Shown here piece after piece: positions 16,052 to 38,084 of a stretch of 49,210 bases of DNA. Source of the stretch: an uncultured delta proteobacterium (lineage in GTDB: Bacteria > Myxococcota_A > UBA9160 > JAFDET01); contig CAMYLJ010000036.1 in the NCBI GenBank assembly GCA_947259215.1, forward strand, positions 34,140 through 83,349. Reading direction: 5' to 3'. Under the pieces are notes generated by a model. The model did no database searches. It had not been told where the DNA came from and saw only the letters and a program-made list of their open reading frames with translations. The first letter of the stretch is position 1, and every line of letters begins with the position of its first letter. A program made the translations under genes and the position numbers.

Positions 16052-16130
16052 GGCGTCTCCTCCGAGGACGGCGGAAGTTAGCGAATGGGACGGGGGGCTC
16101 TAGGTGCGGTTGGATGGCGGCGGTGGCGCG

Positions 16131-16252
16131 CGCGGGGTGGGGAGGGGCATGGCTGCGCTCCTTCGGTTCGCGCGCTTCGGCCTCCGGAGGGCACGCCGGG
16201 TCCGTCAGCGCGCTCACAGGCGTCGCTCCGCCACGCCCCTCCCCACCCCGCG
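16131..16252 (+). repeat. Dispersed structured repeat, module A, copy 1
   Basis: A 23-nt GC-rich arm (16131-16153) pairs with 16230-16252 with one mismatch. The 76-nt loop is nearly identical to those of copies 2 and 3. Inside it, two GCGCGC strings can pair and enclose a small CCTC-GAGG hairpin. The copy sits in the 431-bp gap between efp and the degenerate SDR gene. The rest of that gap is module B (16302-16413) and sequence without visible features. It lacks any protein-like frame shared at fixed length by all copies. Confidence 0.85.
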
Positions 16253-16301
16253 GTCACGCGACGGCTCGCCCAACCCAAGCCCCGGAGTCGTCACGACCCT
16301 G

Positions 16302-16482: not shown

Positions 16483-17484
16483 TTACAACGCCGACGTCTC
16501 GAGCCGCGACCTCCCGTCGCCGCTGCGAGCCATGCCGATCCGGTACCCGGGCCGGAAGCCCAGCTCGCGCTGGGCGCGGGTCGTGTCGAGGCTGAAGCCG
16601 AAGCGCAGGTGGGGCCCGTCGAGGGTTGCCGAGCCGGCGCCGAGCAGGGCGGCCCCGCGCGCGGCCCAGCGCAGCGCGCTGCCCGGGAGCGGCAGGCGCG
16701 GACGCCGGGTCCAGCGCTCGAGCTGCGAGAGCGGCACCAGCTCGTGTCCGGCCAGGTTGAAGACGCCGCGGGCGCGGCGCTCGATCGCGGCCTGGATGCC
16801 CTTGGCCACGTCCTTGTCGCTGATGAGGGCGCACAGGGGGTCGAAGCCCAGAGGGCGCAGCTGCGGGCGCGGGGGGCCCTCCAGCGCGGGGTTCAGGTAG
16901 ATGGCGCCGCCCGAGGCGACCACCGTCGGTACGCGCAGGAGCGCCGTGTGCAGGCGCTCGCTTCCGATCTCGGCGTGGAACAGCATGTCGCAGTCGATCC
17001 AGGCGCGGATCTCGGCCGGAACGTCCGGGTCCAGGTCGAGGGCGCAGCTCTCGTCCAGCCGGTTGGCGTTGCCGGGCTCGAGCCGGTAGACGAAGGCGCT
17101 TCCCAGGGCGACCAGGTGGCGGATCGACGCCACCTCGAGCGAATGCTGGAGCACCAGGCGCGCCTCGGCTGTGCGCTCGGCCACGCCCGCGGCCAGCGCT
17201 GCGCCGGGCGTGGCGCCGTGGCGCGGCACGTGCACGACCGTGTCGATGCCCAGGTCGCGCACCCGGCGCGCGTGGAAGAGGTCCGCCACCGAGCGGTGGC
17301 GGGCCAGGTCGACGCAAGCGTACGCGAGGCGCGGCGGCGTCTCCGAGAGGAAGCGGTCGAACGCGCGAGGCGCAGGTCCATCGCCCACCGCCAGCAGCGA
17401 CGCGACGCCGGGATCGTGGTAGAGGGACTTCACCAGCCGCCGGCCGAGCGGCTCGTCCGCATGCGTGATCAGCACTCCCGTCAT
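16483..17484 (-). CDS. Degenerate NAD-epimerase-like (SDR) protein
   Basis: The product has 333 residues. The fold is that of extended SDR/epimerase proteins: [26 protein letters not shown], and [15 protein letters not shown] followed by GVFNLAG. Two hallmarks are missing. The N-terminal TGxxGxxG reads THADEPLG, and no YxxxK is seen in the expected central region. It may therefore not be a functional dehydrogenase. Its ATG overlaps the acyltransferase stop as ATGA. It is the third gene of the ParA-like / acyltransferase / SDR operon and resembles the SDR at 25955-26872, which also sits beside an acyltransferase. Confidence 0.78.
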
Positions 17485-18560
17485 CGCGTGCGATCCAGCA
17501 GCTGCTGCACGGCGCGTCGCACCTGGTTGGCGAGGTAGCGCACGAGCCGGGGGTCCTCGGCGTCCTCGGGCCCGAAGCGCGTGTGGAATTCGAGGGGCTC
17601 GCCGTACGCGATCCGGTAGCGAACCGGGTAGGGCAGCAGGCCCAGGGGACCCAGCCACGGGAAGGTCGGGGTCAGCGGCGCGGCCGGCAGGCGCAGGAGC
17701 CGGGCCAGGGGCCGCACGTCGTACAGGATGGGCGTCTGGTCGTCGCTCCCGGCGATCGCCATCGGTACGATCGGAACTCGCGCGCGCAGGGCCTCTTCCA
17801 CGAACCCCTTGCGGAAGTGCTGGAGCCGGTAGCGCTGGGTCACCGGCTTGCGCGCGCCTTCCATGCCCTCGGGAAAGACCAGCACGAGCTGGTCGTCTTG
17901 CAGCAGGTCGATCAGGTTGCGGCGGGTGCCCACCACCTGGCCCACCCGCGCCAGGAAGACGTTCACCCACGGCAGGCTGCCGCCCCAGCGGTCCACCACC
18001 GTGCGCAGCAGCCGCGGAGGATCGCTGTGGAGCAGCACGTCGAGCACCGCCATGGCGCCGTCGAAGGGGAGCAGGCCGGCGTGGTTCCCTGCGACGACCG
18101 CGCCGCCCCGGCGCGGGAGGTGTTCGTGCCCCTGGGCCTGGACGCGGAACCAGCCCCGGTAGAGCGCCAGGAAGAAGGGCAGCGAGTTGCGCAGGGCGCG
18201 GGGCGACATACCGAAGCGGTCGTAGTCGGAGCCCGTCTCTGCCAGCCCGGCCAGGGCCGAGACCCGCCGCAGCGCGTCTTCATCCACCAGGCGTTCCAGC
18301 CAGCCCCGGGGCTCGGGCGGCTCCAGGTCCGCGAGCGGCGGCGCGCCCCGACGACCCGGGCGCGGCGGCGCGGGGGCGGGGCGCCGCGGCGGCGCCTCGC
18401 GCGCCGGCTGCGGCGTCGGCTCGGGCAGCCGCGCCAGGAAGGGATCCGGCCCGGCGGGCTCGGCGAACGGATCGCCGCCGAGCACGCGGCGTCCGGGGGG
18501 CGGCAGCGGAATCGTCTCGCCCTCGACTCCGTCCAGCAGGATCGGCGGGCGCTCGCTCAT
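17481..18560 (-). CDS. PlsC-like lysophospholipid acyltransferase with proline-rich N-terminus
   Basis: The product has 359 residues. The first 85 or so are Pro/Arg-rich and probably disordered. The acyltransferase domain has [10 protein letters not shown] (residues 158-167), an H-x6-D variant of the usual H-x4-D, then VFPEGMEG and a [13 protein letters not shown] stretch. The spacing resembles the MGAT/DGAT-like branch of the family. It would esterify a lysophospholipid or glycerolipid at the inner membrane. Both ends overlap neighbouring genes by ATGA: the ParA-like gene upstream and the SDR gene downstream. A paralogue is at 26882-27766. Confidence 0.87.
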
Positions 18561-19426
18561 GCTCCCATCCCCTCGGCCGTGCGGAGCTCCAGCTCTTCCG
18601 CCAGGGCCGCCAACGCGACGGCGCCGCGGTCCTTCGGCGCGTACTCGAAGATGGAGAGGCCCCGCGATTGGGCCTCGTCGATCTTCACGTGGAGGCCCAG
18701 CACGGTGTGGGCGATCTGCTTGGGAAAGCGGTCTTGCAGCCGCTCCAGAATCTCGTGGGCCAGTCGCGTGCGGCGGTAGAAGGTGGGGATCACCATCGCG
18801 ATCCGGAGCTCCCGGTGGCCGTAGCGGCTGCGCACCGTGGCCAGCGTGCGCTCGAGCTCCGCGCAGCCATCGAGGGCCAGGTAGGTGAGCGGCACTGGGA
18901 TGACGACCTCCTCCACCGCCCGCAGGGCGTTCAAGGTGAGCGGCCCGAACGACGGCGGCGCGTCGACCAGCACGAAGTCGTAGTCCGACAGCTCGCGGGC
19001 GCGGTCGAGGCTCGCGCGCAGGCGGCCCGTGGGGTCTGCGGCACCGCCCTCCAGGCCGGGCGCCAGCCCCAGTGCCTTGTTGGCCACCACCAGGTCGAGC
19101 CCCGGGATGCGCGTGCGCAGCCGCGGCAGATCGCCCGGCAGCTCCTCGGGGGACGGCGGGCCGTCGAGCGCCGCGTCGTCCAGCACCTGGTCCAGCAGCA
19201 GGTCCACGGCGGAGCGCTGGGGCGTGCGCACGTCGACGCCGAGTGCCTTGCCGAGCTGCCCCTGGGGATCGAGATCGATGGCCAGGACGCGCCTGCCCCG
19301 CCGCAGGGCCCAGAAGGCCGCGGTGCTGGCGGTCAGGGTGGTCTTCCCACTCCCGCCCTTCTCGTTGATGAACGCGATACGTCGCGGAATGGCGTCCCCC
19401 CCTACGAAACGCCGTTCAACCCACAA
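18557..19426 (-). CDS. ParA/MinD-family ATPase (orphan)
   Basis: The product is about 289 residues. The deviant Walker [11 protein letters not shown] (signature Lys K23, P-loop Lys K28) is followed by [15 protein letters not shown] and [16 protein letters not shown], so dimerisation on ATP is expected. No parB gene or parS site is nearby, so this is not an ordinary plasmid or chromosome partition locus. The stop overlaps the start of the acyltransferase (ATGA). I give the TTG at 19426 as start; it has only a weak Shine-Dalgarno. A shorter start just before the [11 protein letters not shown] stretch, after AGGGGGGG, is possible. Confidence 0.85.
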
Positions 19427-19473: not shown

Positions 19474-19512
19474 AAAAAGCGACGAGCGGGGTGAGGGACC
19501 CACCCCGCTCGT
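19474..19512 (-). terminator. Intrinsic terminator of etfBA
   Basis: A perfect 12-bp stem ACGAGCGGGGTG / CACCCCGCTCGT (19482-19493 with 19501-19512) has a 7-nt loop. On the minus strand it is followed by GCTTTTT (19474-19480). It lies 28 bp after the etfA stop. Confidence 0.9.
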
Positions 19513-22132: not shown

Positions 22133-22135
22133 TCG

Positions 22136-22255
22136 CGCGGGGCGGGGGCGGCGTGGCTGCGCTCCTTCGGTTCGCGCGCGTCGGCCTCTCGAGGGCACGC
22201 CGGGTCCGTCGGCGCGCTCACAGGCGTCGCTCCGCCACGCCGCCCCCGCCCCGCG
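22136..22255 (+). repeat. Dispersed structured repeat, module A, copy 2
   Basis: Perfect 22-bp arms (22136-22157 with 22234-22255) flank a 76-nt loop. The element sits between the 3' ends of the convergent cupredoxin-like and MBL genes, starting 4 bp after the stop codon of the former. Only a trace of module B (GTCTGACCGGGATC near 22285) follows. It could work as a terminator for both genes, but there is no T-tract. Confidence 0.85.
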
Positions 22256-22332
22256 GTCGTGGTAGAGCACGCAGAGGCTCCGAGGTCTGACCGGGATCGC
22301 GGCGTCAGGCCCGGAGTCCCCCAGCGGGCCGC

Positions 22333-25954: not shown

Positions 25955-26872
25955 ATGGAAAAAGTGTTGATCACCGGCATCTCGGGCGGTCAGGGGCGAC
26001 TCCTCGCCCGCCGGCTGCTGGAGAGCTACGAGGTCTGCGGGGTGGACCGTGTGGCCTGGGAGGGGCGCCCGCGGGGCGTCTCCATCCACACCGTCGACCT
26101 GCGCAAGAAGAAGTTCGAGGACGTGATCCGGACCGAGCTGCCCACGGCCATCGTCCACATGGGCTTCGTCCGCCACTTCCGCAGCGGCGAGGATCTGCGC
26201 CACGAGGTGAACGTCCGGGGCACGAAGCAGCTCCTGGACCACTGCACCCACTACGGGGTCCAGAAACTGGTGGTGCTCTCCAGCGGCTACGTCTACGGCG
26301 CCTTCCCGGAGAACCCCTTCGCGATGGACGAAGACCAGCCCCTCTCCGCCAGCCGCTCCTATCCGGAGATCCGCGACCTGGTGGAGGTGGACACCCTGGC
26401 CAGCGCGTTCATCTGGAAGTACCCGCACATCCGCACCTGCGTGCTGCGGCCGGTGAACACGCTCGGCGCCTTCGTGCACAGCATGATCGGCGAGTACCTG
26501 CGCCTGCCGCGCCAGATCACGATGATGGGCTTCGATCCGATGATGCAGTTCATCCACGAGGAGGACGTGTCGGAGTCGATCGCCCTGGCGCTGGAGCACG
26601 GACTCCAGGGCGTGTTCAACGTGGTGGGGCCGGGCGAGGTGCCGCTGCACGTGGCGATCGAGGAGACGGGCGGACAATCGCTCGGGCTGCCCGAGCCGCT
26701 GGTGCGGCCGCTCCTGCGGCGCCTGTTCGACTGGGGCCTGTGGCCCTACCCGGAGGGCGCGCTCGACTTCCTGAAGTACCCGGTGACGCTGTCGGGCAAG
26801 CGCTTCGTCGACGCCACGGGTTTCCGGCCGCTTTTCGGTCTGGAAGAGATCTTCCACAGCGTGCAGCGGTAG
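25955..26872 (+). CDS. NAD-dependent epimerase/dehydratase (extended SDR)
   Basis: The product has 305 residues. The Rossmann motif TGISGGQG (residues 7-14) is intact. VHMGFVRHF, VLSSGYVYGAFPENP and LRPVNTLGAFVHS follow the extended SDR order. The catalytic pair looks altered: SYPEIR has Arg where YxxxK has Lys. IHEEDVSESIALALEHGLQGVFNVVG matches the C-terminal part of the other SDR at 16483-17484. It opens a plus-strand lipid operon; the next gene, an acyltransferase, begins 9 bp later. The substrate is unknown. Confidence 0.85.
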   Translation: MEKVLITGISGGQGRLLARRLLESYEVCGVDRVAWEGRPRGVSIHTVDLRKKKFEDVIRTELPTAIVHMGFVRHFRSGEDLRHEVNVRGTKQLLDHCTHYGVQKLVVLSSGYVYGAFPENPFAMDEDQPLSASRSYPEIRDLVEVDTLASAFIWKYPHIRTCVLRPVNTLGAFVHSMIGEYLRLPRQITMMGFDPMMQFIHEEDVSESIALALEHGLQGVFNVVGPGEVPLHVAIEETGGQSLGLPEPLVRPLLRRLFDWGLWPYPEGALDFLKYPVTLSGKRFVDATGFRPLFGLEEIFHSVQR

Positions 26873-26881
26873 GGAGCGCGA

Positions 26882-27766
26882 GTGTTCGCGGGGCTGAGAC
26901 AGGCGTTGAAAGATCTCGTGGGAGCGGGGATCCCGATGGCGTGGCGCGAACTGCAGGGCGAGCTGGCCGATCGCATCGCCAAGGCGCCGGTGCAGCTGAA
27001 CGAGTACGGCTACGACCCCTACGGGATGCACCCCGCGACCATGGCGGAGAGCATCCTTCCCTCGGCGCTGCTCTACCGCCACTACTTCCGGGCCGAGACC
27101 TACGACGTCGACCGCGTGCCGGAGGGCCGGGTGCTCCTGATCGCGAACCACGCGGGACAGGTGCCCTACGACGGCATGATGCTGACCATCGCCATGCTGC
27201 TCGAGGCGAACCCGCCGCGGATCTGCCGCGCCATGGGCGAGTACTTCATCGCGCGTCTCCCCTTCCTGAGCACCCTGGCCGCGCGCGGCGGGGTCATGTC
27301 GGGCACGCCCGAGAACTGCGTGCAGATGCTCGAGAACGGCGAGTGCGTGATGGTCTTCCCGGAAGGCGCCCGCGGCATCAACAAGCCCTACTCCAAGGCC
27401 TACCAGCTCCAGCGCTTCGGTCTCGGTTTCATGCGGCTCGCCCTCGAGACCGACACGCCGATCGTGCCCGTGGCCATCGTCGGCTCCGAGGAGCAGCAGC
27501 CGGGCCTGGCGAACTTCGAGGGGCTCGGCCACAGCCTGGGCCTGCCGTCGTTGCCCATCACCGCGACCTTCCCGTTGCTGGGCCCCGCCGGCCTGCTGGT
27601 GGCGCTGCCCGTCAAGTACCACATCTACTTCGGGGAGCCGCTGCGCTTCGAGGGACATCCCTCGGACGAGGACGCCGTGATGCAGCAGCGCGTCGACGTG
27701 GTGCGCGACTCGATCCACGCGATGTTCGAGCGCGGGCTGGCCGAGCGCGCGGGAATCTTCCGCTGA
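26882..27766 (+). CDS. Lysophospholipid acyltransferase (PlsC/MGAT-like)
   Basis: The product has 294 residues. Motif I is ANHAGQVPYD (H-x6-D), motif III VFPEGARGINKP, and motif IV the TPIVPVAIVGSEEQQP stretch. The last part (FPLLGPAGLLVALPVKYHIYFGEPL) closely parallels the acyltransferase at 17481-18560, so the two are paralogues. This copy lacks the long proline-rich N-terminus. The GTG start has GGGAG just upstream, overlapping the end of the SDR gene. Its stop shares one base with the patatin ATG (TGATG). It probably acylates a lysophospholipid, perhaps re-using lipid released by the patatin. Confidence 0.9.
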   Translation: MFAGLRQALKDLVGAGIPMAWRELQGELADRIAKAPVQLNEYGYDPYGMHPATMAESILPSALLYRHYFRAETYDVDRVPEGRVLLIANHAGQVPYDGMMLTIAMLLEANPPRICRAMGEYFIARLPFLSTLAARGGVMSGTPENCVQMLENGECVMVFPEGARGINKPYSKAYQLQRFGLGFMRLALETDTPIVPVAIVGSEEQQPGLANFEGLGHSLGLPSLPITATFPLLGPAGLLVALPVKYHIYFGEPLRFEGHPSDEDAVMQQRVDVVRDSIHAMFERGLAERAGIFR

Positions 27767-28695
27767 TGGCCCGCGCCCCCAAGCGCGTCTTCATCCTGGG
27801 AGGTGGCGCGAGCCTCGGCGCGCACCAGGTCGGCGCCATCCGCTGCCTGGAAGAGAAGGGCATCCGCCCGGACGCGATCGTGGGCTCGTCGATCGGCGTG
27901 ATCAACGCCTGCCTCTACGCCAGCGGTGGCGCGGACCACATGGAGCAGGCCTGGGCGGAGTTCCGGACCGGCTCCAAGGTCTTCCGCCCGAGCCTGCGCC
28001 ACAACCCGATCGCCGGGCTCTCGCTCTTCTCCATGGAGGCCCTGGCCGCGTCCGTCGAGGAGCACCTGGATTTCGAGACGATCCTGGCCTCGCCGCTCGA
28101 TCTGTCGTTCATCGTACTCAACCTCTCGCGCGGCGAGGGGCAGTTCGTCTCGAACCGGAGTGCGAAGAGCGCGCGCGAGCTCCAGAAGTTCGCGCGCGCC
28201 GGCTACGCCATCCCGCCGCTCTTTCCGCCGGTCAAGATCCGAGGCGAGTACTACGTGGACGGCGGCTTCGCCTGGAACGTGCCGCTGCTCCAGGCCGTGG
28301 ACATGGGCGCCAGCGAGATCTACGTGCTGGCCGTGATCGCACCGCAGCTCCCCTTCAAGCGGAAGTTCTCGAGCTTCGCGGACTACTCGACCCGGCTGAT
28401 GGACGTGATGTGGCGCACGCTCGGCAACGTCGGCTACGTGACGACGCGGATCGAGGCGGACGGCACCTACCGCGGCGTGCCGGTGACCGTGATCCACCCG
28501 ACCGAGGAGCACGCCGGGTTCAGCCTGCTGAACCTGCTCTCGTCGAGCCCGCGGCGCACGCGCCAGCTCGTGACGGCGGGCTACCGAGACGCCAAGCGCG
28601 AGCTGGCTCGCCGCGCCCGCGCCCGCAAGCGCGGCTCGCAGGCCGGCGAGCCCCTGGGCGAGGTGGAGCCCGCCTTTCGACACGAGGTTGCGTGA
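27766..28695 (+). CDS. Patatin-like phospholipase
   Basis: The product has 309 residues. The oxyanion motif LGGGASLGAH, the nucleophile elbow GSSIG (S42) and the catalytic Asp in DGG (D165) form a complete patatin dyad. No signal peptide is present, so it acts in the cytoplasm or on the inner leaflet. The C-terminus is Arg/Lys-rich. The ATG overlaps the acyltransferase stop and the stop overlaps the next GTG, so translation is coupled on both sides. A deacylase beside an acyltransferase suggests phospholipid remodelling. Confidence 0.93.
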   Translation: MARAPKRVFILGGGASLGAHQVGAIRCLEEKGIRPDAIVGSSIGVINACLYASGGADHMEQAWAEFRTGSKVFRPSLRHNPIAGLSLFSMEALAASVEEHLDFETILASPLDLSFIVLNLSRGEGQFVSNRSAKSARELQKFARAGYAIPPLFPPVKIRGEYYVDGGFAWNVPLLQAVDMGASEIYVLAVIAPQLPFKRKFSSFADYSTRLMDVMWRTLGNVGYVTTRIEADGTYRGVPVTVIHPTEEHAGFSLLNLLSSSPRRTRQLVTAGYRDAKRELARRARARKRGSQAGEPLGEVEPAFRHEVA

Positions 28696-31418: not shown

Positions 31419-31429
31419 AGGGTGGCGCG

Positions 31430-31549
31430 CGCGGAGCGGGGGCGGCGTGGCTGCGCTCCTTCGGTTTGCGCGCATCGCCCTCCCGAGGGCGCACCCGGTC
31501 CGTCGGCGCGCTCACAGGCGTCGCTCTGCCACGCCGCCCCCGCCCCGCG
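31430..31549 (+). repeat. Dispersed structured repeat, module A, copy 3
   Basis: A 22-nt arm (31430-31451) pairs with 31528-31549 with one mismatch around a 76-nt loop, the same length as in copies 1 and 2. The inner hairpin here is GCCCTC-CC-GAGGGC, a longer version of that in the other copies. It lies between the convergent DUF1232 and thioesterase genes. The 314-bp gap between those genes is filled by this module, module B and a terminator-like hairpin. Confidence 0.85.
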
Positions 31550-31571
31550 GTCTCGAGATACCGCGACGAAG

Positions 31572-31745
31572 CCCCAAGCCCTGACCGATCCCGCAGCCAG
31601 CATGGGAGGCGGAGGCCGCAAGTCCGGGCCTCCGGCCCGGGCGCGCAGCGGTCTCAGCGACAGCGCCAAGCGGGCTGGGGAGTCGGCCTTGGGCCGACTC
31701 CCGACCCTTCCTCTTTCCAACGGCGAGCGAAGTCACGATAAATGG
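31572..31745 (+). repeat. Dispersed repeat, module B, copy 3
   Basis: It matches 16302-16413 at both ends: CCCCAAGCCCTGACCGA at the left and TCACGATAAATGG at the right (31733-31745). Its hairpin is CCGGGCC-TCC-GGCCCGG (31624-31640), paired like the one in copy 1 but of different sequence. A further hairpin is inserted here (31678-31702). The right end overlaps the thioesterase gene and supplies its stop codon. Confidence 0.7.
31678..31716 (+). terminator. Terminator-like hairpin after the lipid operon
   Basis: GGGAGTCGGCC-TTG-GGCCGACTCCC is a perfect 11-bp stem (31678-31702). On the plus strand a pyrimidine-rich run, CCTTCCTCTTTCC, follows. The T-tract is interrupted, so termination would be partial. 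Confidence 0.5.
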
Positions 31746-36824: not shown

Positions 36825-36841
36825 CGAACGGCACCCCCCAA

Positions 36842-36954
36842 CAGAAGGGGACGTTCCATGGAATCTGCGTTCGGGGACACTCCTCGGTGCATGAACTGCG
36901 GATGGTTCCCCAGGAGTGGCACCAAGCGCAAATTCCATGGAACGTCCCCTTCTG
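36842..36954. repeat. 113-bp inverted-repeat (MITE/REP-like) element
   Basis: Perfect 23-bp termini (36842-36864 with 36932-36954) start with CAGAAGGGGACGTTCC. Inside, a second imperfect arm pair continues (GGGGACACTCCTCGG against CCCAGGAGTGGCACC), so the whole element can form one long hairpin. GGGGAC occurs at the terminus and again inside. Its right end abuts the stop codon of the M42 gene. No target-site duplication and no transposase are seen. Confidence 0.75.
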
Positions 36955-38084
36955 CTAGGCGAAGGGGTCGCGGCGGAGTTCGTGGCGGCGGCTCGCCAGG
37001 AGGCGGTCCAGCCGGGCGCGCAGGGGGTCGCGCGCGCCCGGGCGGGGGGCGCGGTGGTCGTCGCGGACCATCGCCTCGAGCAGGCGCGCCATGCCGACCA
37101 GGTCCGAGAGACGGATGGTCTCCGGGGCGATGCGGCGGCGGGCGCCCATGTTGTGGTAGTTGCCCAGCGCGACGCACAGCGCCGCCGACGGGTGACCGAA
37201 GCGCTGGAAGACCGTGGCCTCGCAGGTGCCGCCGTCCATCAGCCGGCGCTGCCAGCGGAAGCGCGTGCCCGTGGGACCCGCCAGGCCTGCCGCCAGGCCG
37301 CCGATCCAGCGCGTGAGCGCGTCGTCGAAGATGCTGGTGCGGTCCCCGACGCGAAGGATCGGCCCCGCGCCCTGGGGCGCGTGGGGCAGGGCCTTGCTGG
37401 CCTCGAGAGCGACGATGCGCGCCGCGCGCGGCAGGCGCCGGCCGTGCATGGCGGCCAGCGCGCCGACGAAGCCTTCTTCCTCGCCGCGGGTGAGCGCGGG
37501 TCGCTGCGATCGGCGGCGTCGAAGACGGCCAGGATCGCGGTCACCCCGGCCAGGTCGTCGGCCACCCGCGCCACCAGCAGATCGGGATCCCCGGGCGCGC
37601 GGGTGAAGGCCGGCAGGTCCCACATGCCGAAAGCGCCCGGCGTCACCGGACGGCGCGCGTGCAGGCTGACCCGCGGGTAGCCCCGGCCCCGGGCGGGTCG
37701 TCGGCGCAGGACCCGCGCCGGCACCTCGTCCCCGTCGTCGCCGAAGAAGCGCGCGCGGGCGCCCGGGAAGTAGCCGGGCGTCACGCCGCCCAGGAAGTGC
37801 GCCTCGACGCGCCAGTCCCGGCCGCTGCGGGTCGAGCGGATCGCCCGGAAGCCGGGGTGATCCATGTGCGCGCTGAACACGAGTGGAGAGCGATCGGCGC
37901 GCACGCCGCGGCGGCGCAGATGCAGGTTGCCGTCGGCGTCTTCGCGCAGCCGCAGCTGCGGGCGCGCCTCGCAGAAGGCGCGCACCCAGGCGATCACCGC
38001 GCCTTCCCGGAAGGGTGCGGTGGGGCAGGCGAGGGTGCGCCGCGCCAGACGCAGGACGGTGTCGCGTCGGATGGCCGACGCCAT
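36955..38084 (-). pseudogene. M42/M20-like metallo-aminopeptidase with a frameshift
   Basis: The intact protein would have about 376 residues. The first frame (from ATG 38084) carries SAHMDHPGFR (H73, D75) and VADDLAGVTAIL (metal ligands). After about residue 195 the homology continues in another frame with TRGEEEGFVGALA (catalytic Glu) and ends in GNYHNMGARRRIAPETI. The switch is near 37497, where one base appears to be missing. No slippery heptamer is visible, so a recent mutation or an assembly error is likelier than programmed frameshifting. The start overlaps the meaB stop by one base; the end abuts an inverted-repeat element. Confidence 0.8.

Follow-up and report, generated by a model that had tools for sequence, protein, structure and literature searches.

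A ParA-type ATPase encoded with a tailed PlsC-fold acyltransferase and a predicted non-catalytic SDR-fold protein in uncultured Myxococcota: a candidate ParA/MinD partner system

ParA/MinD ATPases have diverse partners, which dock on them through short N-terminal segments (PMC12204374, PMC10241942), and the N-termini of the known partners are basic. Chromosomal partition systems of the ParABS type (Soj-Spo0J) combine ParA with ParB and parS. McdAB and other ParA/MinD (A/D) cargo systems have a ParA-type ATPase without ParB/parS and, next to it, a gene for a protein whose N-terminal segment is disordered; in McdAB this partner is a carboxysome-binding adaptor. Lipid acyltransferases enter the comparison through PlsC and through an adjacent SDR-acyltransferase gene pair of Actinobacteria (Rv0501-Rv0502 type), and the literature that we searched assigns no function to such pairs. 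Many ParA-like ATPases are without a known partner or cargo; for one subfamily in Myxococcota, conserved and overlapping genes together with a tail motif point to a candidate partner that is a lipid enzyme and not DNA, a chemoreceptor cluster or a microcompartment. A search of the open-access literature found no paper joining a ParA family ATPase with a lysophospholipid acyltransferase or reporting a system made up in this way.

The window (the whole 49,210-nucleotide stretch of DNA analyzed) carries on its reverse strand three consecutive genes encoding a ParA-type ATPase, a PlsC-fold acyltransferase (AT), and an SDR-fold protein (Table 1). Both the gene coordinates originally given for this trio and the ATGA overlaps at its two junctions were borne out when the positions were re-read in the window. 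An intrinsic terminator behind etfA closes the upstream etfBA unit, and the trio therefore appears to be a transcription unit of its own; an elongation factor P-like gene follows it downstream on the same strand. The ParA-AT overlap is not a chance feature, since among the 26 relatives with a readable junction the AT start lies at exactly -4 in 22 and the genes overlap in 24. AT-SDR junctions in relatives are mostly at -4 or -1.

Table 1. Features of the trio, of the second SDR-AT pair in the window, and of the phasin-like genes at three other loci (window positions unless a locus is named).
Feature	Position	Strand	Remarks
ParA/Soj-type ATPase	18557..19426	(-)	289 aa, TTG start; subfamily motifs INEKGG, HVKIDEAQS
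PlsC-fold acyltransferase (AT), PF01553	17481..18560	(-)	359 aa; NHxGxxPxD box and PEG block conserved
Extended-SDR-fold protein, predicted non-catalytic	16483..17484	(-)	333 aa
ATGA stop/start overlap, ParA-AT junction	18557..18560	(-)	
ATGA stop/start overlap, AT-SDR junction	17481..17484	(-)	
AT N-terminal tail, residues 1-85	18306..18560	(-)	low-confidence/disordered to about residue 70 in model
LGxDPF motif of tail, residues 27-32 (LGGDPF)	18465..18482	(-)	tracks ParA adjacency
NHAGLLPFD box of AT, residues 159-167	18060..18086	(-)	HX6D spacing instead of HX4D
Intrinsic terminator behind etfA	19482..19512	(-)	14-pair stem, then CGCTTTTT; fold z-score -4.9
Paralogous SDR, intact glycine motif	25955..26872	(+)	second pair, 6.5 kb away, opposite strand
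Paralogous AT of second pair	26882..27766	(+)	38% identical to trio AT; no tail motif
Phasin-like coiled-coil ORFs, Lys-rich end	L140 3610-3999; L141 828-1247; L142 3748-4134		directly before ParA

Within one lineage of uncultured Myxococcota the trio holds up as a genuine, conserved unit. The original prediction hinged on the three genes occurring together in other genomes, and they do so widely: a search for the AT in 61 related genomes, with the flanks checked, gave the order ParA-AT-SDR in nearly every top-scoring AT locus, with identities to the window's proteins of 60-77% (ParA), 48-73% (AT), and 50-65% (SDR). Of the order's 80 genomes, 36 (belonging to 26 of 44 genera) carry the ParA gene, each in one copy, and wherever the contig continues the AT follows directly, usually with a 4-base overlap and with the SDR next. 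The arrangement is spread over many families of the order and recurs in a sister order and in family f12, another group of the class (L094-L100, L145). At three loci (L035, L036, L144) the SDR is absent while ParA and the tailed AT stay paired, and within the class, on contigs that ran on, no ParA of the subfamily was seen without a tailed AT beside it. More than half of the order's 80 genomes lack the trio, among them those of the sister genus within the family of the window, so that its function must be dispensable or replaceable. Whole-genome searches for ParA-AT adjacency covered the window's own phylum, Myxococcota.

Motifs and whole-domain similarity assign the ATPase to the ParA/Soj family of deviant Walker A ATPases. 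Its Walker A motif, KGGSGKTT, is of the deviant type with the signature lysine, as had been predicted, and the DPQG and DAPPSFG motifs are likewise intact. The pattern KGGS[A/G/T]KT holds in 23/23 aligned trio ParA relatives; the most frequent form is KGGSAKT (16/23), with Ala before the catalytic Lys, and KGGSGKT accounts for 6/23, the window included. Similarity to Soj extends over the whole domain (1wcv, E 3e-44; Pfam AAA_31, 98 bits), and the closest solved structures are 1wcv and 2bej, which are listed just as "segregation protein" and which we take to be Soj of Thermus thermophilus. The Walker variant of McdA, SGGQGKT (PMC9178275), was not found in the trio ParA. At the DNA-binding positions described for Soj, R189 and R218 (PMC3778016, PMC7229837), the ATPase keeps the R189-equivalent Arg and has Lys at the R218-equivalent position; the PRN-loop Arg is missing. 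Close as its ParA is to Soj, the trio differs from a chromosomal ParABS system in having neither ParB nor parS. No parS with ≤3 mismatches occurs anywhere in the window, and the sole PF02195 ParB found in the window's genome adjoins its own ParA at a separate locus. A ParABS partition system was rejected on these grounds, and the orphan status originally proposed for the ATPase stands, with no parB/parS locus found elsewhere that it clearly serves.

The AT is placed in the PlsC/AGPAT family (PF01553) by its domain score (54.8 bits, gathering score 23) and its predicted fold, the best Foldseek match of the catalytic domain being the PlsC lysophosphatidate acyltransferase 5kym (E 6e-6). Fold and PF01553 are common to the two proteins, whereas the trio AT is only 18-20% identical to PlsC, carries an N-terminal tail, and has HX6D in place of the HX4D motif usual in PlsC. 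This spacing (NHxGxxPxD) is present in 26/26 trio ATs and in 113/117 AT-family reading frames of the fetched loci, where HX4D occurs in 0/117, and it characterizes the whole AT family, Actinomycetota included. The enzyme had been described as a membrane acyltransferase, which a hydropathy scan does not support: no transmembrane segment was detected (maximum 19-residue mean, 1.27), and the protein is therefore predicted to be peripheral at most.

The third protein has no Pfam match, and its AF2 model (pLDDT 86) is closest by Foldseek to UDP-galactose 4-epimerase (GalE) and dTDP-glucose dehydratase (RmlB), with E of about 1e-14, indicating that an extended-SDR fold of the NAD-dependent epimerase/dehydratase type is kept. 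The glycine motif TGxxGxxG and the YxxxK active site are each found in 0/24 trio SDRs, and (S/T)HxDxP(L/I)G stands in place of the former, fixed in the order (24/24). YxxxK is also missing from ParA-less relatives and from the Actinomycetota SDRs shown; its loss predates the arrival of ParA and is ancestral for the AT-linked SDR family as a whole. Within the glycine motif, the middle Gly is missing phylum-wide, and His in place of the first Gly is a trait of the ParA-bearing class alone. The label "degenerate SDR" was thus right about the two lost motifs and wrong about decay. A decaying pseudogene was rejected, as the protein is intact and its replacement motif fixed, and the motif record argues for a conserved non-catalytic fold, that is, a pseudo-enzyme.

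The AT-SDR pair is found well beyond the trio. The SDR profile recovers full-length relatives across the phylum, and beyond the class the 29 loci examined (L102-L130) all have the SDR directly after an AT, with no ParA alongside. Adjacent SDR-AT pairs also occur in three Actinomycetota (Tsukamurella, Nocardia, and Nonomuraea). In Tsukamurella the gene order is proC, HTH, AURKAIP1/COX24, epimerase-family protein, lysophospholipid acyltransferase, and this AT shares 40.6% identity with the trio AT over 308 residues (SDR, 25-29%); we take this locus to be the one that mycobacteria have as Rv0500-Rv0502. In PMC10593935, Rv0502 appears only as a conserved PlsC homologue. An SDR-fold protein without YxxxK next to an HX6D AT is common to the actinobacterial pair and the trio; in the actinobacterial pair, however, the SDR precedes the AT, there is no ParA nearby, and the AT tail lacks LGxDPF. 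The window itself holds a second SDR-AT pair, followed by a patatin-like phospholipase gene (25955-28695), and in many relatives the second pair is likewise linked with the trio. A further AT-SDR pair lies on contig C1 of genome G000, near a PhaR-like gene. The pair is thus old and has been duplicated; ParA came as the addition. The original claim that no system of this composition had been described therefore needs dividing: the ParA and the tail motif are new, but they join an AT-SDR pair that is old and widespread. The comparison also draws attention to this pair of an AT and a pseudo-SDR, common to Myxococcota and Actinomycetota, in which LGxDPF marks the ParA-linked form.

The Pro/Arg-rich N-terminus of about 85 residues ascribed to the AT is real; 31% of the tail is Pro, and the model shows it disordered to about residue 70. 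Its most telling element is a short motif, LGxDPF. A DPF-type motif is present in 40/40 checked ATs directly behind ParA, where 35 have the strict LGxDPF pattern, 3 a looser one (L010, L022, L146), and the last two LGGADPF (L095) and ERDPFL (L019). It is present in 0/42 ATs without an adjacent ParA, a set from which L025, with both ParA and motif, was kept out. The motif of the ParA-bearing class stands about 120-175 residues N-terminal of the NHxG box, and most ParA-less Myxococcota ATs appear to begin about 80 residues before that box (start codons inferred). Since actinobacterial ATs have N-terminal extensions without the motif, it is the motif that tells the ParA-linked form apart and not the presence of a tail. 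From these comparisons, the class-specific addition is ParA together with a disordered AT tail bearing LGxDPF. A genome-wide DNA pattern for the motif gave nine matches in the window's genome, the AT among them. No other convincing motif-bearing client emerged; an HtrA-like protease match lies in a likely coding frame, and DPF is ordinary in HtrA-like proteases. The proposal that the tail is an ATPase-interaction element gains support from the way LGxDPF follows ParA adjacency.

The same ParA subfamily appears to have a second, more distant AT association. Complete class members score about 337-510 bits against the ParA profile; the G061 protein scores 298 and those of G062 and G067 about 260, and all other ParAs among the matches listed in 379 genomes score ≤165 bits, contig-end fragments aside. 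In G061 the subfamily ParA is followed by an AT whose tail (VLGNDPFERLGRVKPKTGKK...) carries VLGNDPF, and an ordinary AT-SDR pair sits elsewhere in the genome. The G061 tail is strongly basic, unlike the polyampholyte tails of the order. In the AT tree the ParA-linked ATs of the class form one clade (support 100) with the G061 AT outside it, and forcing that AT into the class clade is rejected (AU p 0.0003), subject to a long-branch caveat. Since motif and ParA share one AT clade in the class, a single event in evolution may account for their association there; an AT of another lineage with the motif beside the same ParA subfamily suggests that the motif went with ParA. By this sequence comparison, G061 represents a single, long-branched second case of ParA-motif pairing.

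We regard the trio as a candidate ParA/MinD partner system, of which ParA and the tail motif would be the novel part. Our preferred reading, to which we give about an even chance, is that of a ParA/MinD-type module, spatial or gating, with the AT itself in the role of ParB and docking via its tail. Judging from its family and conserved residues, ParA would bind ATP, dimerize, and coat the nucleoid or another surface. The AT would act as a PlsC-like enzyme at a membrane or lipid surface, held together with the pseudo-SDR, which its ancient pairing and lost motifs suggest to be a non-catalytic regulatory or scaffold subunit. The co-occurrence of motif and ParA is consistent with a tail that docks on the ParA dimer via LGxDPF and stimulates ATP hydrolysis and release, so that the AT would be distributed along the cell or its activity coupled to the state of ParA. 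Translational coupling would presumably hold the three proteins at a fixed ratio. Were this so, bacteria would place or gate lipid acylation with a ParA motor. Against the module stand the tail, which is not basic in the order, the lost PRN-loop Arg, and the absence of the trio from most of the order's genomes.

The comparison with described A/D systems is mixed in the same way. The trio resembles McdAB and its relatives in having a ParA-type ATPase without ParB/parS and a neighboring gene whose product, the candidate partner, has a disordered N-terminal segment; the tailed AT of the class is also encoded beside the ATPase and conserved with it, as partners in A/D systems are. It differs from McdAB in that the partner would be a lipid acyltransferase and in that the conserved element is LGxDPF. 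Where known ParA/MinD partners have basic N-termini, the trio AT tail, examined for this feature, is not net basic; tails in the order are polyampholytes, often acidic before the motif. Because this feature is lacking, we do not assign the trio to a named positioning system.

How far the module might be spelled out is more tentative. ParA may have been recruited to place a lipid-synthesizing enzyme, the AT being both cargo and ATPase-stimulating adaptor and the pseudo-SDR a regulator, with acyl-lipid synthesis distributed as a result; we think this possible, with chances clearly below even. Phospholipid or other acyl-lipid synthesis would then be spread along the nucleoid or membrane by ParA. 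We know of no other ParA system with a lipid-biosynthetic enzyme as cargo, and this one would then be the first.

The strongest rival, which we nonetheless consider unlikely, has ParA acting as an ATP-dependent switch on AT activity by direct binding, with no spatial gradient and no movement of cargo. Coupled expression from overlapping genes, the co-occurrence of motif and ParA, and the loss of one DNA-contact Arg fit such a switch equally well, but basic residues are kept at the two main DNA-binding positions, and most ParA-family proteins of this type that have been studied act as spatial regulators (PMC9178275). It is improbable that the genes are merely co-transcribed, with ParA riding in the operon and serving an unrelated cargo: unrelated genes can share operons, yet ParA-AT adjacency is kept across two orders, also when the SDR is lost, and in our sample no AT other than the ParA-linked ones has the tail motif.

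In G061, G062, and G067 a gene for a phasin-like, Lys-tailed coiled-coil protein precedes the subfamily ParA; two of these three proteins match Pfam phasin families, with scores below the curated cut-off. This protein is possibly another partner of the same ParA subfamily. Its presence beside that subfamily in distant Myxococcota, along with several WS/DGAT wax/TAG synthases in most genomes of the order, would suit a module for the positioning or partitioning of storage inclusions, of lipid or polymer, with the AT as surface-bound adaptor, but this is the least probable reading, as the phasin matches are sub-threshold, PHA synthase (PhaC_N) occurs in 2/80 genomes of the order, both of which lack the trio, and WS/DGAT is undetectable in six trio genomes (G017, G023, G036, G051, G054, G341). 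PHA granules as cargo in the order and WS/DGAT wax/TAG droplets as obligatory cargo were both rejected on these counts, and inclusions are therefore optional at best. WS/DGAT genes number up to 18 per genome of the order, with 13 in the window's genome; PHA synthase is almost absent.

The window also contains repeats. A dispersed intergenic repeat with imperfect inverted arms of about 45 nt lies at 16130-16289, 22134-22293, and 31428-31587; a 301-base query gave 48 matches in the window's genome, and the element looks MITE- or REP-like. At 36837-36959 there is a 51-nt inverted repeat, 84% complementary with 21 nt between the arms, whose GGAACGTCCCC core looks REP-like.
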